Positions 5,261 to 51,128 of a stretch of 64,000 nucleotides of DNA are shown piece by piece. The notes under the pieces were generated by a model. That model made no database searches. It worked only from the letters and a program-made list of their open reading frames with translations, and was not told the DNA's origin. A program made the translations under genes and the position numbers. Every line of letters begins with the position of its first letter. Position 1 is the first letter of the stretch. Source of the DNA: Anaeromyxobacter dehalogenans 2CP-C (lineage in GTDB: Bacteria; Myxococcota; Myxococcia; Myxococcales; Anaeromyxobacteraceae). Location of the stretch: contig NC_007760.1 in assembly GCF_000013385.1 (NCBI RefSeq), positions 4,562,001 to 4,626,000 on the forward strand, given 5' to 3'.

Positions 5261-5639
5261 CGGCGTCGGTGGAGGATAGCGCAACCGTCGAGGGGGGAGG
5301 GGGGCGGGAGGGGTGGAGGGGGATGGGGGGCGTGGGGGGGCTTTGAGGTGCGGGGGCGGCGCAGGATGGCGGGCGTGGAGGGGGCTTTGAGGGTGCGGGG
5401 GCGGTCGGGGGCGGGACTGAGGGCCGGAACCGGGGATGGCGGGATCGGCTTGCGAGCGGCCTGAGGGGGAGGCGCGGGGCGCGGGACGGGGGAATGCTCG
5501 CCGCTCGCGGTGAGCCTGTCGAACCGCGAGCTGGGCGCGAGATGCGAGGTGCGGGCGGGACTCCGCGAGCGTAGCGGACGTTTGCGACCCACACGGTGAG
5601 TGGATCCTCGTCTCACCATGCGTTAATATCTGCCCAATC
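5261..5639. repeat. 379-bp gene-free, G-rich spacer with an imperfect duplication
   Basis: Between cheW and RAYT1. From about 5291 to 5346 the + strand is nearly pure purine with many runs of three to seven Gs, so it could form G-quadruplexes. A segment containing GGGGGCTTTGAG and then TGCGGGGGCGG occurs twice, near 5336 and 5379. GGATCGGCTTGCGAG at about 5442 recurs at 37391. A REP hairpin lies at 5503-5531. The last 30 bases before RAYT1 are unusually AT-rich (GTTAATATCTGCCCAATC) and could hold its promoter. No protein-like reading frame is apparent. Confidence 0.6.
5503..5531 (+). repeat. REP hairpin, family 1 (upstream copy of RAYT1)
   Basis: A perfect 9-bp stem: GCTCGCGGT at 5503-5511 pairs with ACCGCGAGC at 5523-5531 around the loop GAGCCTGTCGA. 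A second hairpin with the same GGT-loop-ACC design but a different outer stem is at 37518-37551, and an inverted copy lies at 6291-6313 inside the 3' end of RAYT1. Conserved loop with covarying stem is the pattern expected of REP elements recognised by RAYT transposases. Confidence 0.75.
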
Positions 5640-18063: not shown

Positions 18064-18106
18064 AGGCTTCGCGACTCCGCGCGGGATGAGCGCCAACGTC
18101 CGCTCA

Positions 18107-18216
18107 CCCTGAGCGTAGGCGGGCCGCAGGCCCGCCGGAGTCGAAGGGTCGGGATGAGCGCGAACGTCCGCTCACCCTGAGCGTAGGCGGGCCGCAGGCC
18201 CGCCGGAGTCGAAGGG
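18107..18216. repeat. REP family 3, cluster A: two tandem 42-bp hairpin elements
   Basis: Copies at 18107-18148 and 18175-18216 begin CCCTGAGCGTA and end GGAGTCGAAGGG, with a central perfect stem GGCGGGCC / GGCCCGCC around GCA. The whole unit, with its GGGATGAGCGC leader, is repeated with a 68-bp period. A deleted relative (GCGACTCCGCGCGGGATGAGCGC) sits just before. The cluster fills the gap between the ends of the convergent LETM1-like and HEAT-repeat genes. Confidence 0.85.
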
Positions 18217-37312: not shown

Positions 37313-37797
37313 GGGCGGTTTCGGAAGAGGAGCTAGAGGTCGGGCAGCGGGCTGGCGGGGCGGGCCTTGTTGGCCGGGCGCGGCGGCGCGGGATCGGCTT
37401 GCGAGAGGCCTGTGAGGGAACTGGGGCTGGCGTTCGTTGGCCGCGGCCGCGTAGTGAGCCGGCGGATTCCGCTCATGGTGAGCCGCCAGAAGTCCCCTCG
37501 CGCTGAGCCACCGAATTCCGCTCATGGTGAGCCCCGTCGAACCATGAGCGGGGTCGCACTTATGGTGAGCGACGGTTTGCGGCCCAACGGGAACGCACGC
37601 CGTCCTTGACGTGGTTTCACCGTGAGGCGACTTCGCGGCGCGCGGCGCACGGGAACCCCGCCCAGAACGTACTGCCTCTCGCCTGCGGCTCGCGCTCTCG
37701 TTCCGAGCGCGTTTGCGACCCCACCCTGCCCTTCTCGCGTTTCACGTCGAATACGTGCGTCCAGCGAGACCTCCGAAACGCGTGAGAGAGTGTTCTC
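37313..37797. repeat. 485-bp gene-free region with direct and inverted repeats
   Basis: No protein-like frame is apparent. A 19-bp direct repeat (ATTCCGCTCATGGTGAGCC) lies at 37466-37484 and 37515-37533. The second copy forms the left half of a family-1 REP hairpin (37518-37551). GGATCGGCTTGCGAG at 37391 also occurs upstream of RAYT1. CTTATGGTGAGCG at about 37560 is a further fragment. The last 90 bases are less GC-rich and precede the HNH gene, whose ribosome-binding site is probably GAGAG about 7 bases before its ATG. Confidence 0.7.
37518..37551 (+). repeat. REP hairpin, family 1
   Basis: A perfect 11-bp stem CCGCTCATGGT / ACCATGAGCGG around GAGCCCCGTCGA. The loop and GGT...ACC closing bases match the hairpin upstream of RAYT1 (5503-5531), while the outer stem bases differ in a compensated way. 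Confidence 0.8.
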
Positions 37798-38877
37798 ATG
37801 GACACTGCACGTGAACTCTCGGATCGGCTGGCCACCCTGCTCCGGCGTGAGCGCTCGGCGCTCGCGGAGTTCCTGGTCGCGCTCGCGGGCTTCGACTCGC
37901 GGCGCGCGTGGGCGGAGCTGGGATACGCCTCGCTCTTCCACTACCTGCACCGCGAGCTCGGGCTCTCCAAGGGCTCGGCGCAGTACCGCAAGGTCGCGGC
38001 GGAGCTCCTCCAGGCGGTCCCCGCCGTCGTCGGGCCGCTGCGGGATGGGCGACTCTGCTTCACCACCGTCATCGAGGTGGCGCGGGTCGTCACGGCGGAG
38101 AACTGGGAGGCGGTGCTTCCGCGGTTCTACGGGCTGTCGCGGCATGAGGCGGCCGAGATCGTCGCGGCGCTGGTGCCGCATCCGGCGCCGCCGGTTCGGA
38201 CGGTGCTCACGGCGGTGCGTGCGCCTGTTGGTTCAACTGTTGAACTGACCGCCCCTGCCGTGAAGTTCGGTTCAACTGTTGAACCGGTGGTCCCGCGAGA
38301 GACGGCTGGTTCAACTGTTGAACCACGGGTCACTACGATGACCCTTGCGGCTCCGGCGTCCTCTCCCCGCACCGCGGACCTCACCCCACTCACGGCGGAC
38401 CGTCAGCGGCTCCATGTGACGGTAAGTGAACGTTTCGCGCGCAAGCTGGCGCGGCTCCGGGACCTGCGTCCGGGCCTCTCCGACGACGCGCTCCTCGAGG
38501 CGGCGGTGGATCTGCTGCTGGCGAAGGCGGAGAAGCGGAAGAGTGCGCACTCGGACCGGCCTCGGGGCGGCGTTCGCCCCTCCCGGCCGGATCGCGTTCC
38601 TACCCACGTTCGCCGCGAGGTCTGGCGGCGCGACGGCGGCTGCTGTCAGTGGCGGCTCGCCAACGGGGAGATCTGCGGCTCGACGCATGCGCTCCAGCTC
38701 GATCACGTCGTCCCGCGAGCCCTGGGCGGTGAATCCACCGCGGCCAACCTTCGGGTGCTCTGTGCTGCGCACAACCTCGAGGCGGCGCGGCGGGTGTTCG
38801 GTGACGCGTGGATGGGCAGGTACACCAAGGGCCGGCCAGCGCCGGAGGGGGCCCCGCGCAGCGGGGGAGGGGCGTAG
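37798..38877 (+). CDS. HNH endonuclease-like protein with an N-terminal helical domain
   Basis: 359 residues. The N-terminal 130 residues (AWAELGYASLFHYLHRELGLSKGSAQYRK, LRDGRLCFTTVIEVARV) form the helical domain common to the multicopy HNH proteins of Anaeromyxobacter and actinobacteria (DUF222-like). The C-terminus is an HNH nuclease: VRREVWRRDGGCCQWR, THALQLDHVVPRALGGEST, NLRVLCAAHN. The linker at about 145-176 contains GSTVE three times, each written by a 17-bp palindrome spaced 39 bases apart. Targets are unknown. The gene is less GC-rich than its neighbours, and REP DNA lies upstream and GC hairpins downstream, so it may be acquired. Confidence 0.85.
   Translation: MDTARELSDRLATLLRRERSALAEFLVALAGFDSRRAWAELGYASLFHYLHRELGLSKGSAQYRKVAAELLQAVPAVVGPLRDGRLCFTTVIEVARVVTAENWEAVLPRFYGLSRHEAAEIVAALVPHPAPPVRTVLTAVRAPVGSTVELTAPAVKFGSTVEPVVPRETAGSTVEPRVTTMTLAAPASSPRTADLTPLTADRQRLHVTVSERFARKLARLRDLRPGLSDDALLEAAVDLLLAKAEKRKSAHSDRPRGGVRPSRPDRVPTHVRREVWRRDGGCCQWRLANGEICGSTHALQLDHVVPRALGGESTAANLRVLCAAHNLEAARRVFGDAWMGRYTKGRPAPEGAPRSGGGA
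38230..38324 (+). repeat. three palindromes at an exact 39-bp period inside the HNH gene
   Basis: GGTTCAACTGTTGAACC (8-bp perfect inverted repeat around a central T) occurs at 38230-38246 (last base T), 38269-38285 and 38308-38324. The period of 39 bases keeps the frame, so each copy encodes GSTVE followed by eight unrelated residues. The DNA palindrome is conserved while the intervening bases differ. Confidence 0.93.
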
Positions 38878-50990: not shown

Positions 50991-51128
50991 GTCCCTCGAC
51001 TCCGCGCCGCCTGAGGTCCCTCGACTCCGCGCGGCCCTTGGCCGCGCTACGCTCGGGATGAGCGCCAAGCGCCCGCTCACCCTGAGCGTCCCTCGACTCC
51101 GCGCGGCGTGGCCGCGCTACGCTCGGGA
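50991..51128. repeat. REP family 3, cluster B
   Basis: Two complete elements, 51017-51058 and 51089-51128, begin TCCCTCGACTCC and end TACGCTCGGGA around a GC-rich central stem (GCGCGGCC / GGCCGCGC in the first). A truncated copy precedes them at 50992. CTCACCCTGAGCG at 51077 is the start of the cluster A type. The cluster lies between the convergent PAP2 and phoU genes. Confidence 0.85.

Follow-up and report, generated by a model that had tools for sequence, protein, structure and literature searches.

Coding palindromes in a multicopy HNH nuclease family of Anaeromyxobacter are candidate binding sites for the ParB/Noc-like domain of their own product

We propose that palindromes carried within the reading frames of a multicopy HNH nuclease family are the cognate DNA-binding sites of the proteins encoded by those same genes, a reading to which we assign a probability of roughly three in four. 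The analysed window, meaning the whole stretch of 64,000 nucleotides at positions 4562001-4626000 of a single-contig genome (5,013,479 bases; nearest named relatives Anaeromyxobacter sp. PSR-1 and A. oryzae), contains one such gene at 37798..38877 on the forward strand. Its open reading frame, Pfam matches and structure model describe a 359-aa protein in which a linker joins a ParB/Noc-like helix-turn-helix (HTH) domain to an HNH nuclease. A binding site for the nuclease itself was among the readings offered by the initial annotation of this DNA, and it is the one best supported here, through the ParB/Noc-like N-domain, the clade-specific palindromes and the covariation between palindrome and HTH.

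The predicted N-terminal DNA-binding domain (residues 1-127; 37798..38178, forward strand) has a ParB/Noc/KorB-like fold in the structure model, with a predicted recognition helix at residues 58-73 within the same interval and strand. The interdomain linker that houses the palindromes (38215..38412, forward strand) is mostly of low confidence in the model, with pLDDT <60 for most of residues 141-200. It is followed by the HNH domain (residues 262-340; 38581..38817, forward strand), which scores above the Pfam cut-off for PF01844 and keeps the DH...N...H motif and the zinc-binding cysteines. In the family sample that was read (148 members from about 25 genomes), HNH was present in 31 of 33 proteins searched with Pfam, and PF02720 (DUF222) matched 72 of 101 N-domains, at best with 2.7e-7; the window protein's own N-domain reached 22.1 bits against DUF222, below the 24.4-bit cut-off. 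With a DUF222-related N-domain followed by HNH, the order of the DUF222-HNH (REP13E12-like) family, the product of 37798..38877 is a member of a multicopy DUF222-related HNH family. Its own genome holds 14 family matches, corresponding to about 11-12 genes or remnants. The family is dispersed and multicopy, with gene fragments present and up to 46 matches, many of them broken, in genome G007, and phage and plasmid relatives were matched only in the HNH part.

Similarity between paralogues extends 300-480 bp upstream of the gene but only a short way past the stop codon, and the unit that has been duplicated is evidently leader plus gene. In the window, the leader common to paralogues spans 37392..37797 on the forward strand and starts at or near GATCGGCTTGCGAGAGGCC. 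This 19-bp sequence or a close variant lies upstream of all nine copies checked (37392-37410 in the window; about 300-405 bp upstream of the gene in L006, L007, L008, L009, L010, L011, L012 and L014) and possibly marks where the duplicated unit begins on its 5' side. A near-copy is found at 5443-5461, and at L014 the inverse of the motif also occurs just downstream, resembling terminal inverted repeats. The leader further contains an inverted repeat, CCGCTCATGGT...ACCATGAGCGG, at 37518-37551, with similar sequence upstream of the closest paralogues L006 and L012. Elsewhere in the window, CGCTCAGGGTGAGC-like repeat copies at 18102-18183 and 51075-51088 are close to an intergenic motif, CTCACCCTTCGACGGGGCTCAGGGTGAG, around G000 3760078.

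The initial annotation described three 17-bp palindromes, in frame at a 39-bp step and encoding GSTVE each time. Frame, step and peptide are exact at 38230-38246, 38269-38285 and 38308-38324. The stated length holds for the second and third copies, both GGTTCAACTGTTGAACC, of which the second is perfect over 17 bp except for its unpaired centre base and the third reaches 19 bp with the flanking T/A (38307-38325); it does not hold for the first, GGTTCAACTGTTGAACT, which ends in T and is perfect over the inner 15 bp (38231-38245). Allowing up to three mismatches, 0.02 matches are expected in the window by chance and six were found, both strands counted. The codons that spell GSTVE are uncommon in family genes, where TCA accounts for 6% of Ser, ACT for 7% of Thr and GTT for 9% of Val. 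The intervening codons had been described as unrelated, whereas 18 spacers from nine genes follow a common, worn pattern, (L/P)xxPAVTS, which points to the array of the window clade being an old 39-bp tandem repeat whose core has been kept while its spacer drifts. A kept core with drifting spacers is the reverse of what would be expected under selection on a peptide repeat. Orthologues retaining GSTVE with synonymous changes that break the palindrome had been named as the observation that would count against conservation at the DNA level; across 27 copies, seven core codons are changed, 5 with and 2 without an effect on the amino acid, and one of the synonymous changes falls on the unpaired centre base. 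Synonymous change is thus not what keeps the GSTVE peptide, and the palindromes, as judged from these comparisons between copies, are real and under selection as DNA.

A genome-wide pattern search for the palindrome, as had been suggested, recovered the 15-bp core (GTTCAACTGTTGAAC/GTTCAACNGTTGAAC) six times, confined to three paralogous HNH genes with 3, 2 and 1 copies; the next best matches have two mismatches. The core occurs 8 and 9 times in two close relatives, where the copies read belong to the same gene clade. Altogether, 27 copies or near-copies are distributed across nine genes, always 39 bp apart, and as many as five of them fall in a single orthologue. When copy number was compared between strains, an orthologue pair assigned by matching flanks (G000 2389121 / G004 2060157) had one copy versus five, two of the five being degenerate, and palindrome copy number is therefore variable. 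For three site types in the own genome, 6/6, 4/4 and 5/6 sites lie in family genes or remnants, the remaining one being intergenic. The 2-mismatch matches in the own genome (L025-L027) and single matches in G013, G033, G070 and G073 fall outside the family, and those that were viewed are unlinked to it; a host-wide regulon was rejected, there being hardly any sites beyond the HNH family.

Some palindromes occur apart from an intact gene. Two lone intergenic family palindromes, at G000 3760078 (L345) and G012 C130:1701 (L347), have no family gene detected nearby and could be old remnants or real targets. A strain without the gene carries, at about 9407-9450 of L344 (G004 4804406/4804434), a remnant of roughly 300 bp in which two family palindromes, different from each other, lie some 12 bp apart, along with a trace of the gene end. 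Lost copies appear to have left both this locus and G017 C2:26878 as remnants; the G017 site has two further exact matches, both on contig C20, and two one-mismatch matches.

In other clades the interdomain linker again holds palindromes, but of different sequence; most are centred on CpG, and they reach 32 bp. Among them are TTCGGGCGCCCGAA, TTTCATGCGCATGAAA, GTTCAACCGGTTGAAC, CTGGTTCATCCGGATGAACCAG, CGGACTTCGCCGGCGAAGTCCG, CGCCCAAAGTTCACCCGGGTGAACTTTGGGCG, GTTACTTCTGACGTCAGAAGTAAC, GATCGTCCAACCGGTTGGACGATC and GCGATTCCCGACGTCGGGAATCGC. Perfect palindromes of at least 18 bp occur in 32 of 143 linkers, against 2.2 expected (maximum 5) when codons are redrawn synonymously, and those of at least 20 bp number 20 against an expected 0.7; equal-length stretches of the N- and C-domains of the same genes contained none of at least 18 bp. 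Even palindromes of 14 bp or longer numbered 52, of which 51 centre on CpG. Linker stems of 6 bp closing a 4-base loop numbered 66; the loop is itself self-complementary in 42 of them, compared with 6% by chance, and the symmetry therefore continues through the centre, as in a duplex DNA site read by a dimer. In the distant family f7, the palindrome CTTGTCCCGGGACAAG lies in the C-terminal tail, most copies being 17-66 bp ahead of the stop codon; its compensated variants include CTCG/CGAG and CACG/CGTG. In several clades, comprising most copies in G002, G003, G005, G007 and G014, there was no convincing palindrome, flanks included where the sequence covered them, and the sites of A. oryzae are degraded. 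Long perfect or near-perfect palindromes near the gene end were also observed in genus g6, in L151 (at the C-terminal end), L125 and L295, for example TGCAAATTATGCCGCGCGCGGCATAATTTGCA; they differ in type from the linker sites. L211 offers another example of tandem sites, with two CTCGCCCCGGGGCGAG copies, 37 bp from each other, on either side of the stop codon.

The N-domain is predicted to adopt a ParB/Noc-type HTH fold. Comparison of its model (pLDDT 94) with the PDB returned ParB, Noc or KorB for all 12 best entries (Z 5.7-8.1; next row 4.2), several of which were solved on parS, NBS or operator DNA, and the whole-protein model matched Spo0J-parS best (Z 9.6), with the ParB/Noc/KorB families heading the list. 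Foldseek E-values were weak (all >0.001) and a profile comparison with real ParB HTHs was marginal (E 0.0048, probability 7%), so that the fold assignment draws on how consistent the structural matches are and on the form of the sites; direct Pfam or PDB sequence searches gave no match between the N-domain and ParB. ParB and Noc bind palindromes of this size via recognition helix α4 and a second contact region, and in ParB α4 together with residues 170-173, 178, 201 and 204 touches parS (PMC7383237). The ParB_N (CTPase) domain gave no Pfam match, and the modelled protein starts at the DNA-binding domain. CTP-dependent clamping and spreading would be unlikely in a protein lacking the CTPase domain.

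The palindrome tracks the recognition-helix residues of the same gene far better than it tracks the rest of the protein. In a set of 48 genes (effective number 22, sites picked as perfect palindromes), mutual information corrected for phylogenetic background ranked position 88 first of 264 columns and positions 58, 62, 51, 48 and 59 among the top ten, with P = 1.5e-6 for HTH versus rest in tests that assume independence of alignment columns or gene pairs. Half-site distance correlated with HTH-plus-contact-loop distance at 0.65; the partial correlation with the HTH was 0.59 after removal of the rest of the N-domain and the C-domain, compared with -0.07 for the rest of the N-domain and 0.15 for the C-domain, and none of 200 random column sets of equal size matched the HTH. 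In a sliding window, covariation peaks at residues 45-65, with a lower second peak at 85-105; codons 51-63 of the window gene (37948..37986, forward strand), in the main peak, cover the end of the first HTH helix, the turn and the start of the recognition helix. Three clades with Tyr at position 62 (HTH ...AYYR or AYWR) have G instead of A at half-site position +6. Sister paralogues, twelve with TTCGGGCGCCCGAA and four with TTCATGCGCATGAA, differ little in their N-domains; the only positions that separate them fully are R51H, G55K, A60S and Y63L, which all fall in the HTH, while at positions 83, 111 and 120 the majority residue differs between the groups without full separation. Positions 55 and 63 correspond, in a mapping aligned by eye, to the parS-touching ParB residues 170 and 178. 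L112 holds both sister palindromes but one HTH type. Palindrome word and reading domain appear to change together in evolution.

We infer that the product of each gene dimerises and binds the palindrome within that gene. The protein would dock on the palindrome as a two-fold symmetric dimer through its ParB/Noc-like HTH and so recruit the HNH nuclease to the gene that encodes it and to that gene's sister copies. The site would sit in the linker, or in the C-terminal tail in the distant group, because this stretch tolerates any peptide, and in the window clade a 39-bp tandem array of 1 to 5 copies would raise local occupancy. That the recruited nuclease then nicks or cuts DNA, and that this feeds gene conversion and spreads the unit of leader and gene, is in our estimate slightly short of an even call: the multiplied unit, the many broken copies and gene conversion at REP13E12 loci suggest recombination between copies, provoked by the nuclease once recruited. 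A cleavage target under self-control, as the initial annotation put it, is possible. Shuffling of N- and C-domains was considered as a sign of cutting in the linker and found unconvincing (across-linker correlation 0.02, against 0.22 and 0.15 at similar distance). The wider picture is tentative, and we would put it at somewhat less than an even chance: one frame would hold a site-specific nuclease together with its recognition site as DNA, such pairs would co-diversify orthogonally, the nuclease would drive conversion and spread, and DUF222-HNH genes would constitute a selfish homing-to-self system with a ParB-like reader.

The main alternative outcome shares the binding step and differs in what follows from it, the protein blocking transcription at the in-gene palindrome and so keeping the dangerous nuclease scarce, with the HNH domain inactive there. 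We regard such autoregulation as a serious but minority possibility. In its favour, the gene carries the site in cis and has it almost to itself, repressors are known in the ParB family, KorB among them, and a roadblock would gain from tandem copies; against this, positions at least 430 bp inside the gene, or mostly 17-66 bp before the stop in f7, are poor places for repression when a leader of 300-480 bp is on hand as a better one, and gene-less remnants retain the site. That some other dedicated DNA-binding protein reads the palindromes, be it a repressor, as raised in the earlier annotation, or a ParB/Noc homologue, is improbable. The genome does have a normal ParB and two further HTH_ParB matches, but with clade-specific palindromes, several to a genome, several dedicated proteins would be needed, and each palindrome tracks the HTH of its own gene.

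Selection on a hairpin in the mRNA is less probable still. A palindrome can fold as RNA, yet the self-complementary loops (42/66 versus 6% by chance) led us to reject this explanation, and the CpG at 51 of 52 even centres and a covariation partner that is a DNA-binding HTH also argue against it. We give an equally slight chance to a coding palindromic insertion of the Rickettsia type, multiplied by slippage and without a binding role. The in-frame position of the palindromes, their varying number between orthologues and the occurrence of some alone between genes would all suit such an element. However, the sites are near-confined to the HNH family, its remnants and a few isolated intergenic copies, their sequences differ by clade and covary with the HTH, and the core is kept while the spacer drifts; in the own genome, no element of this kind was seen in unrelated genes, and this suggestion of the initial annotation was set aside on distribution.

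The open-access literature searched yielded no paper joining Anaeromyxobacter, an HNH endonuclease and palindromes, and none of the papers that came up there seems to report sites of this kind in DUF222 genes. The parts are known, namely ParB-like readers, HNH nucleases, parS inside spo0J and a ParB-CTPase-HNH fusion; what appears to be new, against the open-access literature searched, is a nuclease family whose genes carry their own co-evolving candidate site in coding sequence. Genes of the DUF222-HNH type, which include the REP13E12 repeats of tuberculosis bacteria, are plentiful, multicopy and of no known function, and we propose a testable role for them as a ParB-like reader joined to a nuclease with a built-in cognate site. 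The family would be a natural collection of dozens of reader-site pairs, each gene stating its own target, and of value both for work on the evolution of DNA-binding specificity and as a supply of orthogonal DNA-binding modules.

Compared with ParB, Noc and KorB, the family shares a predicted all-helical HTH, predicted specificity via a recognition helix and a second contact region, and palindromic, mostly CpG-centred candidate sites of 13-16 bp that covary with the HTH. The linker's 14-bp-class CpG-centred palindromes resemble parS and NBS, and the odd 13-bp core of the window clade the KorB operator. A site inside a gene also has precedent, in that parS lies within spo0J of Bacillus subtilis. 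Unlike these proteins, the family has no detected ParB_N CTPase and has a C-terminal HNH, and it comprises dozens of paralogues with diversified sites in one genome. A ParB-type module fused to HNH is known and carries the CTPase fold (PMC12704722), whereas this family appears to carry the HTH part alone. Domain order and multicopy habit are those of the DUF222/HNH REP13E12 family of Mycobacterium, of which the genes described here represent a Myxococcota branch; in M. tuberculosis, few sites undergo gene conversion as often as the REP13E12 loci (PMC13061034). Like HNH homing endonucleases, the family would consist of sequence-specific HNH nuclease genes spreading as selfish units, but no intron, intein or interrupted target was seen here, the candidate site lies inside the nuclease reading frame and persists in occupied copies, and the one gene-less allele examined is a decayed remnant still carrying two palindromes. 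Some homing enzymes, among them I-TevI, a GIY-YIG enzyme, act as repressors by binding the gene that encodes them. With Rickettsia palindromic elements the family shares palindromic DNA inside reading frames; those elements are mobile and occur in many unrelated genes, whereas the sites described here are near-confined to one family.
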